Origin: Paludibacteraceae bacterium | GTDB lineage: Bacteria; Bacteroidota; Bacteroidia; Bacteroidales; Paludibacteraceae | Assembly (NCBI GenBank): GCA_016285885.1 | Contig: JAEERP010000001.1 | Span: forward strand, 62,001-126,000 | Length of the DNA: 64,000 bases | Direction of reading: 5' to 3' | Notes under the pieces: generated by a model | What the model was told of the DNA's origin: nothing | Seen by the model: only the letters and a program-made list of their open reading frames with translations | Databases searched by the model: none | Made by a program: the position numbers and the translations under genes | Shown here: one piece after another, positions 4,996 through 13,365 of the stretch | Layout of the letters: each line of letters begins with the position of its first letter | Numbering within the stretch: position 1 is the stretch's first letter

Positions 4996-5160
4996 TGACG
5001 GACGACATGCATTGATTTTTTTATGAATTATTGTGATTATATCGTCCGTTATGATTATCTTTATCTATTCGCCGGATGATGGATGATGCCCCATGTCAGC
5101 TTCTCTGTCGGGTTTTTAGGCCATAGGTGAACCAATTTTAATCAAATATGTTTTAATGTT

Positions 5161-6123
5161 ATGAATGACACGAAAAAAGTAAGCCGAATAGAATGGTTAT
5201 GCGCCGCGATGATCGATTTCATACCGGCGGTGCTCTTTACTTATTTGGAGATCTTCCTGAAAAAACACTTGTGCCTCTCGGAAACCATCTCCGCATTGGC
5301 CATTCTGCTTGCCGTTTATATGTTGTTGAAGGATTTCCTTTTTGACGGAAGAAGTTTAGGAAAACGATTCGTGGATATCCGGGTCGTGTGGCCGGAGGAT
5401 TCAGACAAGACTCGCTTGGTCTATCGGAACTTGCCCCTCAGTTTGATGATCCTTTTGTGGGGATGGCGGGACTTGGAGCAGATCATTCTCATCCCTTCCC
5501 ATTGGTTGAGACTTGGGTTTGTGATCTATATGTGGGCTGATCTTATTTGTGTCGCGCTAAAGGGAAAAACCTTGGGGGATTGTTTTGCCCATACAAGTCT
5601 GGAGGTGAGTGGTGATCCGAACTATGTGCTTCATAAAAGTGCGACGAAACGGATCGCCTGTTTCGTCATCGTGCTGATATTGTCTCTTTATGAAGCGGGC
5701 TATATCTCTCCTTCAAACCTTCTGTTGACAGGTAAGCCATTAGAGGATTATTCTCTCGTTTTCTATGTGAATAGCTTGTACTATATCTTCCTTTTTTCAT
5801 GCTCTCTATTTGTTTCATATAAAATTATAAGAGAGTATTTACAGGGTAAGGGCATTGATGTGGTGGTGATTATTATGATCGTGATCTTATTATTTGTCCC
5901 TTCCGTCATCAAATCGCTGTCTCTTCTATGGCTGATGATTCCCAATAAGATTCTTCTTATTTCTTTTATATTGATGCATATTGTGTCAGTGATGGTCCCT
6001 GTGGTGTATCTGTGTGAAAAAATCGTCAATAGGATAGAATTGAGATGGGTCATTTACGTGTTGGCTTTGGCGGGTACGATTTGTAGTAATATTTCTAATA
6101 TATTCATATTTTTTCGTTTCTGA
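5161..6123 (+). CDS. RDD family membrane protein, copy 2
   Basis: A 320-aa paralogue of the gene at 3902. The first ~170 residues are almost identical (GRSLGKRFVDIRVVW, KGKTLGDCFAHTSLEV), while the C-terminal membrane segments have diverged considerably, ending ...ISNIFIFFRF. As in copy 1, several hydrophobic helices are present. No functional partner is adjacent on either side. Divergence limited to the C-terminal half suggests either relaxed constraint or specialisation of the two copies. Confidence 0.75.
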   Translation: MNDTKKVSRIEWLCAAMIDFIPAVLFTYLEIFLKKHLCLSETISALAILLAVYMLLKDFLFDGRSLGKRFVDIRVVWPEDSDKTRLVYRNLPLSLMILLWGWRDLEQIILIPSHWLRLGFVIYMWADLICVALKGKTLGDCFAHTSLEVSGDPNYVLHKSATKRIACFVIVLILSLYEAGYISPSNLLLTGKPLEDYSLVFYVNSLYYIFLFSCSLFVSYKIIREYLQGKGIDVVVIIMIVILLFVPSVIKSLSLLWLMIPNKILLISFILMHIVSVMVPVVYLCEKIVNRIELRWVIYVLALAGTICSNISNIFIFFRF

Positions 6124-6241
6124 TTTTCAAATATTAAGCAGCATGTGAGGGAACCGTTTCTCTGTGAAGGAAAAATTTTGTAGAATATGGTCCGCTATGA
6201 TGATATTCACTCTTTCCCTTTGCCGGAATCGTGTTTTTTCC

Positions 6242-8101: not shown

Positions 8102-8932
8102 ATGATGGAAACTGGAAATTTGGGCAAATGTCTTGAAATGACGAACTTCAGTCCGGATTACATGGAGAAGGTTGCCATACCTACGCATCTCAGGGAGGTG
8201 GAGGAAGAGTTTGGTGTGAAGATTCTGCTGGCCGTCGAGTCGGGTAGCCGCGCATGGGGCTTCGAGTCAAAGAACAGCGATTGGGATGTGCGTTTCATCT
8301 ACGTGCACAAGCCTGAATGGTACTTTATGATCAAAGAGCAACGTGATGTGATTGAGCGCATGTACGAGGACGATGTGGACTTGTCCGGGTGGGAACTGCG
8401 GAAAGCGCTCGTGATGTTCAGCCGTGGTAATCCATCCTTGCTCGAATGGTTCAATTCGCCTAAGGTCTATTATAGAAACGAGGAGTTCATCCGACGGGTT
8501 CTGGAGGTGGAATCGCTCTGCTTCAACCCTGTCAGAGGCATGTACCACTACAATAGGATGTACAACAAGCACAACGAACGGTATCTGCAGAAGGAGGGTT
8601 GTTCCGCCAAACGGTTCCTCTACTACCTTCGGGGTGTGTTGGCATGCAAGTGGATCGAAAAGAACCTGACAATGCCTCCTGTGGCGTTCAGGGAGCTTGT
8701 GGAGGCCGTTGTGGACGATGAGCGAATAAAGGCTCAGATTGACCGATTGCTGCAACTGAAAAAGAGCGGGAACGAATGTGATCTGCAATTGGTCGATGCC
8801 GAGTTGCAAAGCTTCACGCATCGCTTGGCGGATTATTACGACGCTCGCATCGGTTCATTCCGCCCGGGACTGCAAAGGGTGTCGCACGAAAAGCTGGACG
8901 CGATATTGTATGATATGGTTCTGCTCCAATAG
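8102..8932 (+). CDS. RlaP/YcgL-type nucleotidyltransferase (RNA repair, DNA polymerase beta fold)
   Basis: A 276-aa protein. Residues about 40-65 carry the polymerase-beta nucleotidyltransferase signature ESGSRAWGF followed by NSDWDVRFIYV: G-S, then the metal-binding D-x-D. This is the pattern of the COG3541/RlaP family, which is known to co-occur with the RNA ligase RtcB. A helical C-terminal half follows (ARG-rich KRFLYYLRGVLACKWIE). The predicted role, from family context, is adding nucleotides to broken RNA ends or otherwise preparing them for ligation; this has not been shown for most members. It has its own copy of the promoter/operator block that also precedes rtcB, so the two are probably induced together. 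Confidence 0.82.
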   Translation: MMETGNLGKCLEMTNFSPDYMEKVAIPTHLREVEEEFGVKILLAVESGSRAWGFESKNSDWDVRFIYVHKPEWYFMIKEQRDVIERMYEDDVDLSGWELRKALVMFSRGNPSLLEWFNSPKVYYRNEEFIRRVLEVESLCFNPVRGMYHYNRMYNKHNERYLQKEGCSAKRFLYYLRGVLACKWIEKNLTMPPVAFRELVEAVVDDERIKAQIDRLLQLKKSGNECDLQLVDAELQSFTHRLADYYDARIGSFRPGLQRVSHEKLDAILYDMVLLQ

Positions 8933-9021: not shown

Positions 9022-9085
9022 TTCCATTCGGGTTGTCGGGTGGGGTGCCACAAGAAGAAAAGTGTAATTTAATAGATTGATAACG

Positions 9086-10258
9086 ATGGTAATAAAAACG
9101 ATTAACAACCGCTTGGTTAAGATTTGGACCGACGATGTGGAGGAGTCGGCCATGCGTCAGATTGAGAACCTGACCACCCTTCCGTTCCTCTTCCACCACC
9201 TGGCCATCATGCCTGACGTGCACGCTGGTATGGGTATGCCGATCGGTGGCGTGCTCGCCTGCAAGGATGTTGTCATCCCTAATGCGGTGGGCGTTGATAT
9301 CGGTTGCGGAATGTGCGCCGTGAAGACCAATTGGAAGGTGGGCGACATCCCTATGGATGTGCTCCGTAAGGAGATCATGAGGGGAATCCGCAAACGTATT
9401 CCTTTGGGTATGGACCACCACAAGGAGCCTCAGGACGAGCAATACTTGCCTCAGGGATATGACCTGGATAAGCTGGAGGTGGTGAACCGTCGCCAGCACT
9501 CCATCCGGCACGAGGTGGGTACGTTGGGAGGTGGTAACCACTTCATCGAGCTGCAGAAGGATGAGGAGGATACGCTTTGGATCATGATCCACTCGGGTTC
9601 GCGTAACTTAGGAAAGCAGGTGGGCGATTTCTACAACAAGCTGGCGGCTTCCCTGAACGAACGTTGGTATTCCAGCGTTCCTCCGGAGCTGCGTCTGCCT
9701 TTCCTGGCCCGTGGATGCAAAGAGTTCGGTATGTACTGGGAGGAGATGAAGTATTGCATCGACTTCGCTTTGTGCAACCGTAGGCTGATGATGGAGCGTA
9801 TCGAGGAGATCCTTGCGGATGCGCTCAAGGGTATCGAGTTCGAGCCGATGATCAACATCGCCCACAACTACGCCGCTGTCGAGAACCACTTCGGGTCGGA
9901 CGTCATCGTGCACCGCAAGGGCGCCACGCTTGCCCGAGAGGGTGTCGTCGGTATCATCCCGGGCTCGCAGGGTACGGCTTCGTATATCGTCGAAGGCCTT
10001 GGCAACCCAGACTCGTTCTGCTCCTGCTCGCACGGCGCGGGTCGCGTCATGTCGCGTAAGATGGCCATCGATACGCTGGATATGCGACAGGAGGTGGAGA
10101 TGCTGGAGGCGAAGGGTATCGTCCACGCTATCCGTAGCCAGGATGATATGCAGGAGGCCTCGGGTGCCTACAAGGACATCGATACGGTCATCGCCAACGA
10201 GGCGGATCTGGTCAGGGTGAAGACAAAATTGTTGCCGGTGGCGGTGATTAAGGGGTGA
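9086..10258 (+). CDS. rtcB: RNA-splicing ligase RtcB
   Basis: A 390-aa protein from the ATG at 9086; an in-frame TTG at 9077 is less likely. All RtcB motifs are present: MPDVHAGMGMPIGG, GVDIGCGM with the metal-binding Asp and Cys, GGGNHF, HSGSRNLGK, HNYA, PGSQGTASYIVEG, and SCSHGAGR, whose histidine carries the GMP intermediate. RtcB joins a 2',3'-cyclic phosphate or 3'-phosphate RNA end to a 5'-OH end using GTP and Mn, as in tRNA splicing or repair of nuclease-cut RNA. Neighbours are an RlaP-type nucleotidyltransferase upstream and tRNA-like RNAs plus a RING/TerD-like protein downstream. No rtcA (cyclase) or RtcR regulator is in the window. Confidence 0.96.
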   Translation: MVIKTINNRLVKIWTDDVEESAMRQIENLTTLPFLFHHLAIMPDVHAGMGMPIGGVLACKDVVIPNAVGVDIGCGMCAVKTNWKVGDIPMDVLRKEIMRGIRKRIPLGMDHHKEPQDEQYLPQGYDLDKLEVVNRRQHSIRHEVGTLGGGNHFIELQKDEEDTLWIMIHSGSRNLGKQVGDFYNKLAASLNERWYSSVPPELRLPFLARGCKEFGMYWEEMKYCIDFALCNRRLMMERIEEILADALKGIEFEPMINIAHNYAAVENHFGSDVIVHRKGATLAREGVVGIIPGSQGTASYIVEGLGNPDSFCSCSHGAGRVMSRKMAIDTLDMRQEVEMLEAKGIVHAIRSQDDMQEASGAYKDIDTVIANEADLVRVKTKLLPVAVIKG

Positions 10259-10470
10259 TTGTACAGACGCAATATTTTGCGTCTCTACGTCCCCCGCCCC
10301 GGCATCACGGTGTCGATTGTACAGACGCAATATTTTACGTCTCTACGTCCCCCGCCCCGGCATCACGGTGTCGATTGTACAGACGCAATGCATTGCGTCT
10401 CTACGTCCCCCGCCCCGGCATCACGATGTCGATTGTACAGACGCAATATTTTGCGTCTCTACGTACCCCG
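10257..10470. repeat. 58-bp tandem repeat with internal palindromes, 3.6 copies
   Basis: Units begin at 10257, 10315, 10373 and 10431, an exact 58-bp period. Each holds the palindrome GACGCAAT...GCGTC followed by a C-rich spacer. Unit 2 has a broken stem (TACGTC) and unit 3 has a changed centre that still pairs (AATGCATT). The same palindrome type occurs singly at 28393 and 28509. The array begins at the rtcB stop codon, so it may also shape or end the rtcB transcript. Translated frames through it are repeat artefacts. Confidence 0.92.
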
Positions 10471-10557
10471 ATACCCGATTGATATTTGGAAACACATTTA
10501 CGATTTTTTCGTCTTATTTTTCGTGATTAAACAAAATGTATGTATTTTTACGTTCAT

Positions 10558-10643
10558 AAGACGGACTAAATGGTTCTTACTTCTATTAGTATGAGACCTT
10601 CGGGGCTCAAACAGGGCAGAACCGTAATTTCCGTCTTTTTTTT
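10558..10643 (+). ncRNA. structured RNA hairpin with terminal U run
   Basis: Three nested helices are visible: AAGACGGA (10558-10565) with TCCGTCTT (10630-10637), GGTTCT (10572-10577) with AGAACC (10618-10623), and an inner hairpin GAGACC-TTCG-GGGCTC near 10592-10607. A T run follows to 10643. This fits a small RNA with its own terminator; a possible -7 box (TATTTTTA) lies near 10542. The loop beside the middle helix contains TACTTC (10578), a motif that recurs three more times downstream. No known family recognised. Confidence 0.55.
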
Positions 10644-10645
10644 AT

Positions 10646-10735
10646 GCGGCGGTAAGCTTTGTAATTGCCTCTTTCAAGGCCTAAACGTATGCTTACTCCT
10701 AATGGTTACTGTTGGTTCGAATCCAACCCGCCGCT
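10646..10735 (+). ncRNA. tRNA-like RNA without a D arm
   Basis: A perfect 7-bp acceptor-like stem (GCGGCGG at 10646-10652 with CCGCCGC at 10728-10734), unpaired T10735 as discriminator, and a perfect T arm GTTGG-TTCGAAT-CCAAC (10711-10727). Between them no D arm can be drawn. Instead TAAGC (10653-10657) pairs with GCTTA (10691-10695), enclosing a smaller hairpin GCCT/AGGC, and a 14-nt segment leads to the T arm. GCG-rich acceptor plus U73 would fit a Gly tRNA, but no regular anticodon loop is present. It could be a tRNA mimic, a decayed tRNA, or a Y-RNA-like module. Confidence 0.6.
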
Positions 10736-10754
10736 CGATAAGGAAAAGGTCAAG

Positions 10755-10781
10755 AGCAATTTACTTCTGTAACACTTTGCT
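10755..10781 (+). other. small hairpin with TACTTC loop between the two tRNA-like genes
   Basis: AGCAA (10755-10759) pairs with TTGCT (10777-10781), and the loop carries TACTTC at 10762. It follows AAGGTCAAG, exactly as the larger hairpin at 11022 does, so each tRNA-like gene is trailed by a related hairpin. Confidence 0.4.
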
Positions 10782-10820
10782 AAAGAGGCTCCATCAGTTG
10801 TTCGATTACCTCTCCTTTAT

Positions 10821-11008
10821 ACCGCGATAGCTCAGTTGGTAGAGCAATAGTTTTATTTGTGATGTCATTTCCTCCCGAAGGATCAATCATCGTATAACGG
10901 TTGTGTGAAGCCCTATTTCACCCCGTGATGTCATTCCCTTCCAAAGGATCAATCATCATATACTTCTGTTCCTACTATGTGTCGCAGGTTCGATTCCTGC
11001 TCGCGGTG
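10821..11008 (+). tRNA. tRNA gene with a 115-nt insertion in the anticodon loop
   Basis: The cloverleaf is canonical apart from the loop. Acceptor ACCGCGA (10821-10827) pairs perfectly with TCGCGGT (11001-11007), discriminator G11008. T8-A9, then D arm GCTC-AGTTGGTA-GAGC, then anticodon stem ATAGT (10847-10851) with ACTAT (10974-10978), variable loop GTGTC, and T arm GCAGG-TTCGATT-CCTGC. The anticodon loop spans 10852-10973, 122 nt instead of 7, and contains two 38-nt repeats. Depending on where an intron would be cut, a 7-nt loop would read TTC, TAC or TAT, so identity cannot be assigned. The insert is far shorter than known group I tRNA introns. RtcB is encoded just upstream. It may be an intron-containing tRNA, a tRNA mimic, or a broken gene. 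Confidence 0.7.
10859..10962 (+). repeat. two 38-nt direct repeats inside the tRNA insert
   Basis: Copies at 10859-10896 and 10925-10962 begin GTGATGTCATT and end GGATCAATCATC-R-TATA. Each can fold as GATG/CATC closing an inner CCT/AGG hairpin; differences between copies fall mostly in the inner hairpin. Copy 1 contains CCGAAGG, copy 2 CCAAAGG. Confidence 0.8.
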
Positions 11009-11021
11009 CGCTTTTTATAAC

Positions 11022-11081
11022 AAGGTCAAGGTCAGCATACTTCAAATCAGAATTGTAGTTTCTCTGCTGACCCATTACCTT
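11022..11081 (+). promoter_or_regulatory. leader hairpin ahead of the RING/TerD-like gene
   Basis: AAGGT (11022) pairs with ACCTT (11077-11081), and inside it an 8-bp helix GGTCAGCA (11030-11037) with TGCTGACC (11065-11072). The loop begins TACTTC (11038). It ends 16 nt before the ATG at 11098, so it could be a translational control element or the last of the RNA modules. Confidence 0.5.
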
Positions 11082-11097
11082 TTAAATTTTTAATGTT

Positions 11098-13365
11098 ATG
11101 GATAACAATGTTTTAACAAAAGTGGCCTTGCGCTACAAGGCGGTGTTCCTGGATGTGAACCGAGCGGATATCAATCTGCAGTCGGAGACGACCGCTCCCG
11201 TCTTGGCGCTCGTCCGCCGCTTGCAGGAGAATGGTTACTGCGTCAGCGAGGAGTTGCTCCACGCACTGAACAACGTCCCTGTGGATCGCCTCGCGGAGAT
11301 CACTTCGTGCATCAATGAGGTGATGGGTGTGGACCTCAACTGGACACCGCTCGTCAAGGGTTGGGATGTGCCTACGGGTGAATCCTTGGCCGATCATCTC
11401 ATCACGTGGGTCGCTAATATCTTTGGCAAGAAGGCTGGTTTCAAAGGCACTACATTGCCTTGCGGTCACCTGATCCCGGAGGGTACTTTCCCCCTGGAAC
11501 GCTATAACGGATGTCCTTTCTGCGGCAAGCCTTTCGAAACGTCCGAATTTGTCTACAAGGGGCAGGGTAGCAAACTGAAGGAACTGCGCCTCTTCACGAT
11601 GGAGGATATGGTGTATGTGTTCCGCTCGCTCCTGACGTCCGCCACACCGCTGGATGGTACGCAGCAGGATTCGTTGAGCCAGTTGTTGAGGCTCTTCCCG
11701 CTGCCTGATGATGTCGAGGTCACGATGAAGGAGACCGCCATGCTCGTCATCAGGATGCTGGTGGAGCAGGGTAGGGCTGACGAGGCGATGCGCTTCCTGA
11801 AGACTCCGACCGACATCCTCCGCTACCTCTGGTTCGAGAAGACGGGCTTCGCACAGATCATCGAGCCGAAGACGCTTGTCGCCCACGCCAGCAAGTTGTA
11901 CTTCCACATGTGGGGACCGCTCGACAGAAGTCAGGACGCGGCTATTGACATGAAGCGTAAGCTGATGCTGAAGTACGATCGTAAGGCTTGCCTGCGTGTG
12001 GCGAAGTGGCTGAACGATATCCCGATGACGGCTGTCCAGTCGGCCGAGAACATGAACCCGAAGCGTGGCATGTGGGTGCGCATGATCCGTGCGCTCCGCT
12101 TGGGCGAATACTCCCGCAAGAAGGGCTTCGACCGCTTGGCGGAGATCCTCGATGTCTTCTACAAGCAAGACTATTCCACATGGCAGGGGCGTGTCGACAA
12201 GGCTCGTTCCGCGAACGATGCGGAGGCCACGCTGGCGCTGCTGAGGGAGCGTCCGGGCCTCTTTGCCCGTTGCCTCTTCGCTTCTATGTTGCGCTTCGGT
12301 ACAGACAAGACGCTGGCGGCCTTCTCGGAGGTTGAGGATCGTATGCCTGCCCGCTTGCTGCTCTCGCTTTGCAATGCGGCGGAGACCTACTTCGACCCGA
12401 AGGCGGAACGTCTGGCTCGCCCTATCACGGGGGGCGTCAAAACGATTGAACCGAATAAACTGCTGGTGCTCTACGACGAGGAGACCCTCCAAGGAATGAT
12501 GGAGGCGATCAAAACGCTCTACCGACGTTCCATGACCAAACGTTTCGCGGCGCAACCGTGTGAGGCGAAGCGCATCTATATCGATCCTTCGCTCTATAAT
12601 ATCCCTGTGAGCGTGGGCGACCGTTCCGCCACCATCCAGGACGCCTCCTGCGCATTGATGGGTACGCGCTTCCCGGTGTCGGGCGATGCGGTGCGACTCT
12701 TCCTCCACTGGGGAAAAGGTCTCGGTTGCCGCCCGATCGACATGGACTTGAGCTGCCGTGTCGCCTTGCCGAACAACCAAATCGCGGAGTGCGCCTACTA
12801 CAGCCTGACCTGCGTGGGGGCGAAACACTCGGGCGATATCCGTTGGGTGCCAAAAGGCGAGATGGGTACGGCCGAGTACATCGAGCTCTCCCTCCCTGAG
12901 TTGGAGGCTGCCGGCGCCACGTACGTGACCTTCACTTGCAACGCCTACTCCTCGGGTACGCTCTCGCCTAACCTCATAGTGGGTTGGATGGATTCCGCCT
13001 ACAAAATGAAGGTGTCGGAGGAGACAGGTGTGGCCTACGACCCGTCGTGCGTGCAGCACATGGTGCGCATCAGTGAGGGGAACCTCACCAAGGGATTGGT
13101 TTTCGGTGTGCTCGATGTGGCGAAGCGTGAGATCATCTGGCTTGAGATGCCTTTCACGGCGCAGACGTTGCGGGGAGCGGACAGTGCCTCCATTGAGGCG
13201 TTGCTCCATAGGCTGGAGAACAAAATCACGGTGGGCCAGCTCCTCGACATCAAGGCGGAGGCGCAACACCTTACGCTTGTGGAGAATGTTGACGAGGCCG
13301 ATGAAGCCTACACGTATGAGTGGGCGCTCAACCCTGCTGAGGTGACGAAGCTGCTGACGGTGTGA
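11098..13365 (+). CDS. RING/zinc-finger and TerD-like domain protein, RtcB neighbour (MXAN_6230/SCO0854-like)
   Basis: A 755-aa protein. A RING-like zinc site lies at residues 122-142: C122-G-H124, then C139-P-F-C142. The middle is helical and repeat-like (residues about 190-470), similar to a scaffold. Residues about 530-690 resemble the TerD/stress-protein fold: HWGKGLGCRPIDMDLSC, then an even spacing of beta strands ending VLDVAKREIIWLEMPF. This architecture matches my memory of the family named MXAN_6230/SCO0854, members of which occur near rtcB. Biochemical role unknown; TerD domains bind calcium, and the zinc finger could bind RNA or protein. Its position next to tRNA-like RNAs and RtcB suggests it works with them. 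A strong terminator follows. Confidence 0.72.
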   Translation: MDNNVLTKVALRYKAVFLDVNRADINLQSETTAPVLALVRRLQENGYCVSEELLHALNNVPVDRLAEITSCINEVMGVDLNWTPLVKGWDVPTGESLADHLITWVANIFGKKAGFKGTTLPCGHLIPEGTFPLERYNGCPFCGKPFETSEFVYKGQGSKLKELRLFTMEDMVYVFRSLLTSATPLDGTQQDSLSQLLRLFPLPDDVEVTMKETAMLVIRMLVEQGRADEAMRFLKTPTDILRYLWFEKTGFAQIIEPKTLVAHASKLYFHMWGPLDRSQDAAIDMKRKLMLKYDRKACLRVAKWLNDIPMTAVQSAENMNPKRGMWVRMIRALRLGEYSRKKGFDRLAEILDVFYKQDYSTWQGRVDKARSANDAEATLALLRERPGLFARCLFASMLRFGTDKTLAAFSEVEDRMPARLLLSLCNAAETYFDPKAERLARPITGGVKTIEPNKLLVLYDEETLQGMMEAIKTLYRRSMTKRFAAQPCEAKRIYIDPSLYNIPVSVGDRSATIQDASCALMGTRFPVSGDAVRLFLHWGKGLGCRPIDMDLSCRVALPNNQIAECAYYSLTCVGAKHSGDIRWVPKGEMGTAEYIELSLPELEAAGATYVTFTCNAYSSGTLSPNLIVGWMDSAYKMKVSEETGVAYDPSCVQHMVRISEGNLTKGLVFGVLDVAKREIIWLEMPFTAQTLRGADSASIEALLHRLENKITVGQLLDIKAEAQHLTLVENVDEADEAYTYEWALNPAEVTKLLTV

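Follow-up and report, generated by a model that had tools for sequence, protein, structure and literature searches.

A hairpin RNA module linked to RING-type genes recurs, circularly permuted, in the anticodon arm of tRNA-bodied RNAs of Bacteroidota

By comparing related loci, we found an RNA module that covaries, is linked to genes encoding a RING-type protein, and occurs both as free hairpins and, circularly permuted, inside tRNA bodies, which in turn co-occur with the RNA ligase RtcB. In the window (the whole 64,000-nt stretch of Paludibacteraceae DNA that was analysed), the tRNA-bodied form is a 188-nt gene. It lies in the 0.84-kb gap between rtcB and the RING gene and is surrounded by four more RNAs that share its module (Table 1). 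We consider it fairly likely (probability roughly 0.6) that this gene encodes a tRNA-bodied non-coding RNA with the module grafted on its anticodon stem, that the RING protein forms RNPs with the cluster RNAs, and that RtcB acts on or beside the tRNA-like body. The host genome (G000) is 3.75 Mb in size, and the window belongs to its contig C13; the closest named relatives are rumen Paludibacteraceae/Bacteroidales MAGs.

Table 1 Repair genes, module RNAs and RING gene of the cluster in the window
Feature	Position	Strand	Evidence or remark
RlaP, RNA-repair DNA-polymerase-beta-type nucleotidyltransferase	8102..8932	+	Pfam PF10127, E 9.5e-75
RtcB RNA ligase	9077..10258	+	Pfam PF01139, E 7.6e-108; ends 563 bp upstream of the 188-nt gene
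Module hairpin 1 (outer stem, CTAA / AATT internal loop, 8-bp stem, TACTTC)	10559..10637	+	R1 41.0 bits (sequence is in the model); folds into this shape
Half-tRNA RNA: acceptor stem and T arm only	10646..10735	+	read by eye
Module hairpin 2	10743..10815	+	R1 58.1 bits (sequence is in the model); folded singly
tRNA body with 122-nt insert	10821..11008	+	RF00005, 51.8 bits
Permuted module repeat, copy 1, without TACTTC	10859..10896	+	direct repeat D3
Permuted module, copy 2, TACTTC at 10961-10966	10925..10966	+	repeat and spacing test; inner pairs 7/8
Module hairpin 3	11019..11084	+	R1 63.8 bits (sequence is in the model); folded singly
RING protein, 755 aa	11098..13365	+	NCBIfam NF041916, E 4.4e-45

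The Rfam tRNA family matches the 188-nt gene over the whole model (1-71/71), well above its gathering threshold of 29 bits (E 3.2e-8; 4.5e-10 when the sub-region was searched). Its stems are ACCGCGA/TCGCGGT (acceptor), GCTC/GAGC (D), GCAGG/CCTGC (T) and ATAGT/ACTAT (anticodon; 10847-10851 and 10974-10978), the last of which encloses a loop of 122 nt at 10852-10973. ARAGORN, with the settings used, called no tRNA here. Compared with a decoding tRNA, the cloverleaf with its D and T arms is kept, but the 7-nt loop with its anticodon is not. A first-pass annotation, made from the letters of the window, had described exactly this complete cloverleaf and oversized loop, with RtcB encoded some 560 bp upstream and no recognisable group I core, and all of these points are borne out. 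No Rfam intron family, group I core included, matches at gathering in the window or at E≤1 in 10200-11120. Likewise, no Rfam ribozyme family matches the cluster RNAs, and across the window and the Bacteroidota loci searched only the tRNA family covers any of them at gathering. Sub-gathering matches in 10200-11120 to mir-592, CLRN1-AS1, Fibrobacter-1 and PYLIS_3 were taken as chance.

The 188-nt RNA is more stable than all of 200 dinucleotide shuffles (-56.4 versus -39.8 ± 3.7 kcal/mol, z -4.45), a stability to which the tRNA body contributes, and its single-sequence MFE structure loses the normal D arm. The insert contains two copies of a 38-nt direct repeat that are 89% identical (10859-10896 and 10925-10962), and the letters of this repeat match the hairpins 5′ and 3′ of the tRNA. 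The first-pass annotation had missed both this repeat and the four module RNAs around the gene. Such a two-copy form was found in 6 of the 61 genomes searched, all in the genus of the window. The neighbouring half-tRNA RNA appears by eye to have a permuted, weaker copy of the module in place of the D and anticodon arms, and this RNA is kept in L031, L032, L033-L038, L041 and L043. Between rtcB and the RNA cluster (10257-10470), the window also has head-to-tail repeats of about 58 bp, 94-95% identical to a reference copy. Each carries a hairpin, GACGCAAT..ATTGCGTC, and their number varies among relatives by eye (none in L031, more in L041).

As a free hairpin, the module has an outer stem ending in GG, then C or CY, AA opposite UU, an eight-pair inner stem and the sequence UACUYC. 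This last element lies on the 5′ side of the variable loop and is the most constant unpaired element of the hairpins. Most of 18 singly folded hairpins share one shape, which L038d and L042a adopt only partly. We aligned sixteen sequences from seven sources (the window, L032, L037-L040 and L042) with MAFFT. The covariation score of this alignment is 0.603, versus 0.212 ± 0.030 after shuffling (0/500) and 0.069-0.172 when the alignment is slid. Doubly changed cells number 48 versus 16.3 in shuffles (0/500) and pairs with a double change 9 versus 6.2 (10/500), while another, weaker measure gives 3/500. In the inner stem, both sides have changed in seven of the eight pairs. Where the loop has only 4 nt, the alignment displaces the outer stem by one column, which brings the pairing of this stem down to 73.8%. 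In a spacing test, at least 6 of 8 inner pairs form in 14 of the 16 hairpins (all but L038a and L038b) and in 0/2000 shuffled versions; the module patterns, including this test, were defined on the same Bacteroidota sequences that were then scored. The R1 model matches the host genome at this cluster only.

Within the tRNA bodies, the strands of the module occur in a different order, namely the UU-side strand, a loop-closed GG/CC stem, the AA-side strand and finally UACUYC leading back to the anticodon stem. We aligned 13 tRNA-bodied genes (alignment A4), leaving out the two-copy gene of the window and L072. The L072 tRNA match (103 nt) lacks the module as aligned, and the RtcB comparison below includes it among the tRNA bodies. 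In A4, 92.0% of paired cells are paired and the covariation score is 0.655 versus 0.238 in shuffles, with five measures at 0/500. Conservation and covariation of the insert in relatives, which the first-pass annotation had proposed to check, are thus found, and they contradict the disrupted gene that it had named as the outcome of a refutation. Every cell of the acceptor, D and T stems is paired (100%, 13/13 relatives), compared with 89.1% for the anticodon stem and 82.8% for the module helix, in which 8 of 13 pairs are doubly changed. Given A4 alone, RNAalifold misses the anticodon stem but recovers the other three stems of the tRNA body (acceptor, D and T), the 8-bp stem of the module and an outer stem (2 bp, shifted). 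All 13 inserts have the permuted module with the exact 8-nt spacing and 6-8 of 8 pairs, and the gene in the window has 7; among letter-shuffled inserts, 0.9% reach at least 5 pairs. The 13 aligned genes have no conserved anticodon, and the flanks of their inserts vary in length.

Module hairpins occur in all 25 Bacteroidota loci with a RING-type gene that were examined (one weak), and tRNA bodies with inserts, whose matches span 103-188 nt, in 17 of them (L031-L034, L037, L038, L041-L043, L071-L076, L080 and L082). The clusters of L035, L036, L039, L040, L070, L077, L079 and L081 have no tRNA match, although the contig of L040 begins only 280 bases before the RING gene. R1 matches lie 5′ of the RING gene in 13/13 loci found by protein in named genomes, several of which supplied the R1 model while others belong to near-identical congeners. 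Any NF041916 match at all occurs in 14 of the 395 genomes of a class sample, and the full-length protein in seven, the host genome among them. Ten further regions came from the six other genomes with the full-length protein, three found by R1 (G220, G326 and G297) and G004. The protein is present in nine of these regions, and all nine have R1 matches (in L074 a weak one, 18.6 bits, E 0.05). The three loci on plasmids or second chromosomes (L080-L082) match as well. In an order sample, R1 matched 5 of 295 genomes (G000, G220, G326, G245 and G297). The matches in G000, G220 and G326 adjoin the protein, and that in G245 has the coordinates and scores of L040. The match in G297 (28.8 bits) is probably false: it falls within a long ORF, and the 9 kb examined contain no recognisable RING gene.

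Among congeners of the window, L035 and L036 lack a gene of the 188-nt type. G004, rated 100% complete, lacks both the tRNA-bodied RNA and RtcB, and its cluster resembles, by eye, a deletion that fused the ends of the tRNA. In L032, what looks by eye like a coding segment (5060-5920) lies between the RNA cluster and the RING gene, with a leader-type hairpin on each side of it. L071 has three ordinary-length tRNA matches (55, 37 and 61 bits) at 5913-6208, just 5′ of the module RNAs.

We searched 22 whole genomes for RtcB, counting G245 and G719 (taken as the genome of L040) once and leaving the genome of L031 outside the count. RtcB is present in all 15 with a full tRNA body (G000, G220, G391, G442, G562, G626, G631, G711-G713, G716, G717 and G720-G722), in both with only the acceptor and T-arm RNA (G714 and G715) and in none of the five without a recognised tRNA-like cluster RNA (G004, G326, G522, G718 and G719), against a class background of 64/295 genomes. 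These counts ignore kinship, and the genus of the window contributes 6 of the 15, both half-tRNA genomes and one of the five; the RtcB-less genomes are also partly incomplete (G326 89%, G245 86%; G718 has no completeness figure). Linkage does not explain the co-occurrence, because rtcB is unlinked in several genomes (e.g. P. ihumii G721, G220, G442 and G626). Since the five RtcB-less genomes keep the hairpins and the RING gene, RtcB cannot be required by the hairpin part. A plasmid record of S. hominis with a tRNA body carries RtcB. In searches of single records, RtcB was absent from those of Hymenobacter (tRNA body) and Prevotella oral taxon 299 (no tRNA body).

Other RNA-repair genes are patchier. 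RlaP was detected in 5 of 11 genomes searched, and an RlaP-type nucleotidyltransferase adjoins the RNA ligase in the window and in only some relatives. L073 has an Rnl1-type ligase and L075 has two RlaP genes. Near RING-type genes outside Bacteroidota, we found rtcR with a sigma-54-like promoter (by eye) in Variovorax (L085), RlaP in the phage XacN1 locus, an RNA ligase in Vibrio and, 3 kb away, RtcB in phage Weasels2. WYL regulators occur in L071, L073, L075, L077 and L082. In 9 of 18 clusters, the 400 nt 5′ of the first RNA contain a palindrome resembling TRCGCA-N4-8-TGCRYA. L071, L073, L075 and L077 are among these nine, whereas L082 and the window are not; whole loci hold 0-5 copies. That WYL proteins control the RNA clusters is a guess.

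The 755-aa RING protein is, by sequence, a distant member of the MXAN_6230/SCO0854 family (NCBIfam NF041916, RING_SCO0854), to which it is related over most of its length at 154 bits, compared to a curated cut-off of 600. Pfam Prok-RING_4 scores 25.2 bits on it, just under the cut-off of 27, and is detected in nine of nine family members at E≤1 (best 1.4e-5). The C-terminus is probably a TerD-like domain, judging from relatives. The C-terminal stretch of NF041916 matches TerD genes in G391 and G348, and the Vibrio and Deinococcus relatives are annotated as TerD family. Pfam TerD does not match the RING protein, and hhalign relates the two weakly (E 0.003 and probability 10.6 with distant members, 0.1 with Bacteroidota alone). 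An AlphaFold2 model from a 7-row alignment was too poor to use (pLDDT 54.7). Foldseek with this model returned nothing usable (best E 3e-3, TM 0.09), and PDB sequence searches gave no credible match. TerB, vWA or MoxR genes occur close to the RING-type gene in some Deinococcus and Streptomyces loci (L131, L132, L083 and L127), an arrangement known from Ter-type conflict systems. In an open-access literature search, we found no report of the module RNAs or of an RNA partner for the RING family, and no paper naming MXAN_6230 or SCO0854; papers matching only "Prok-RING" dealt with plant and snail genes.

With tblastn, relatives of the RING protein were found in phages and on plasmids from Streptomyces, Vibrio, Variovorax, Deinococcus, Mycolicibacterium, Niallia and others; viral contigs searched with two protein alignments gave no match. 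In 18 loci of other phyla and phages, we scanned for a strict hairpin with a 5-bp outer stem, at least 7 of 8 inner pairs and T[AC]CTTC directly after. In flanks of 1 kb before and 0.8 kb after the gene, on its own strand (32.4 kb), the scan gave 17 near hits, versus 3 elsewhere (328 kb). Its pattern was written after six loci had been viewed, and both the score bar (11) and the flank sizes finally used were chosen knowing the first results. Controls gave 3 hits in 311 kb (13 TROVE regions) and 0.04 in dinucleotide-block shuffles of the flanks. The near hits fall in 12 of the 18 loci, of which the Streptomyces-type loci are mutually related, and are missing from L085, L088, L129, L131, L134 and L138. 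In the twelve loci fetched after the pattern was set, eight have near hits (11 hits), and L129 and L131 have one far hit each. Looser versions are visible by eye in L085, L088 and L134, among them what look like tRNA arms joined to the module in the Rhodobacter and Ruegeria phages. The letters of the internal loop differ between phyla. At E<0.01, R1 matches only 1 of the 18 loci, that of phage Weasels2 (three matches, E 1.3e-5 to 1.9e-3). In Rhodobacter phage RcXuper, Rfam alpha-proteobacterial and permuted tmRNA matches (L088 3216-3632) lie shortly 5′ of the RING-type gene, next to many tRNAs and to hairpins that resemble the module. In Ruegeria phage RpAliso, the region of the RING-type gene also contains an annotated tRNA-Gln of 122 nt (L134 190-311).

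The arrangement resembles the Ro60 system. In passages of one account, S. Typhimurium rsr-yrlBA-rtcBA places Ro60 and Y RNA beside RtcB, RtcR senses tRNA fragments, and YrlA has a tRNA-like domain (PMC7790460). Another describes jumbo phages in which TROVE has a tRNA-like partner and RlaP occurs with RNA ligases (PMC7824862), and a third states that Y RNA stems retain a bulged C (PMC4030889). As in Ro60-Y RNA-RtcBA, non-coding RNAs, one of them tRNA-like, occur here with the gene of a putative RNA-binding scaffold and with RtcB, and rtcR adjoins the RING-type gene in Variovorax. The GG followed by an unpaired C may also resemble Y RNA stems, and a tRNA body is present too. However, TROVE (PF05731) is absent from the host genome, the RING protein aligns to TROVE with an hhalign probability of 0.1, no Rfam match to Y RNA or YrlA was found at E≤1 in 10200-11120, and R1 had no match in 13 Bacteroidota TROVE regions. 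By partner protein and by Rfam, the cluster RNAs are not Y RNA. In a further difference from the Ro60 system, a complete tRNA with its acceptor stem here bears the module in the anticodon arm. Burroughs and Aravind (2016) reportedly described a novel tRNA-like molecule with SPFH/Band-7 RNA-repair systems. The cluster would resemble that system in having a tRNA-like RNA in RNA-repair islands, but no Band-7 gene was recognised among the annotations and ORFs viewed.

We infer the binding, expression and function of the cluster RNAs from these comparisons. The 188-nt gene would give rise to a non-coding tRNA-bodied RNA whose insert is a recognition module common to the neighbouring hairpins. If the RING protein binds this module, the cluster RNAs would form RNPs with the protein. 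By offering a surface that resembles a tRNA, the tRNA body might allow RtcB, joined by RlaP in genomes that have it, to act on or beside the RNA. The RNA could serve as a mimic, bait or resealable substrate during a tRNA-damage response, comparable to the way in which Ro60/Rsr accompanies a tRNA-like Y RNA in rtcBA operons. Among the readings of the first-pass annotation, a tRNA mimic whose long arm binds a protein fits best, because the insert is a conserved, covarying module that is also found outside tRNAs. A broader version is tentative. It would see an uncatalogued RNA family that spans phyla (GG-C / 8-bp / U(A,C)CUUC) and is dedicated to RING-TerD proteins as a TROVE-independent counterpart of Ro60-Y RNA, and the anticodon arm that the permuted module enlarges in complete tRNAs as one that RtcB cuts and reseals, perhaps freeing a circular module RNA.

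Several other explanations draw on the same data. The tRNA body could draw an anticodon nuclease, with the altered loop blocking or reporting it while RtcB and RlaP mend real tRNAs. The co-occurrence with RtcB and the rtcR gene with its sigma-54-like promoter in Variovorax are consistent with such a decoy or sensor, and a passage on YrlA suggests that it may compete for anticodon nuclease (PMC7790460). This idea overlaps with the RING-RNP explanation; by itself it leaves the RING gene and the plain-hairpin majority of cluster RNAs unexplained, and we consider it unlikely. The first-pass annotation had also raised a spliced intron. In that case, the arm would be cut on both sides of the insert and RtcB would join the halves into a tRNA or tRNA-like product, perhaps circularising the insert, which would then regain the hairpin order of the module. 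An insert in the anticodon loop with RtcB as ligase is indeed reminiscent of tRNA introns, and the link to RtcB holds up, with its gene 563 bp upstream in the window, a conserved tRNA body and the 15/15 versus 0/5 distribution. Unlike the group I introns of bacteria or the protein-spliced introns of archaea and eukaryotes, however, the insert has no Rfam intron match and no splicing endonuclease family to process it, and the module also occurs outside tRNAs. The endonuclease family tRNA_int_endo (PF01974), detected in four archaeal controls, is absent from the host genome. The unequal insert flanks and lack of a common anticodon in the 13 aligned genes, and the congeners L035 and L036, which have RtcB without the gene, also argue against a classical intron. 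The 52 ordinary tRNAs of the host genome serve 18 amino acids, with only Ala and Ile missing. Ala and Ile tRNAs usually sit in rRNA operons, and position 3-70 of the 188-nt gene is C-G, versus G-U in tRNA-Ala. An intron of an ordinary decoding tRNA is thus unlikely and RtcB-dependent splicing in general rather improbable, although processing of the 188-nt RNA by RtcB is conceivable because tRNA-bodied RNAs and RtcB co-occur genome-wide.

Circular permutation is typical of small ribozymes, RtcB joins the kind of ends they would leave, and the 8-bp stem is flanked by two conserved unpaired elements. A ribozyme is nevertheless very unlikely, given the lack of a match to Rfam ribozyme families, the persistence of the hairpins in RtcB-less genomes and the variation of internal-loop letters across phyla. 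UACUYC, as the most constant unpaired element, might instead be an antisense seed for target mRNAs. Hairpin 3, whose 3′ end lies 13 nt 5′ of the start codon of the RING gene, may be a leader element of the RING mRNA and would control it. As an account of the whole cluster, such regulation is highly doubtful, since the tRNA body and the conserved internal loop are left unexplained. A decaying tRNA gene with a random insertion could account for the restriction of the two-copy form to 6 of 61 genomes. It is hardly credible, because tRNA stems and module covary, all 13 inserts have the permuted module with exact spacing, and the tRNA-bodied form recurs in distant families.

Taken with the RING-RNP reading, these comparisons speak for an uncatalogued damage-response system based on RNA, and against a broken or an ordinary tRNA. 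They show that complete tRNAs have gained an RNA module in their anticodon arm through circular permutation. They also offer a putative RNA partner for a widespread RING family for which our open-access search found no paper. Finally, bacterial RtcB may have a natural partner or substrate in the 188-nt RNA; the abstract of PMC7790460 describes the substrates of this ligase in RNA-repair operons as unknown.
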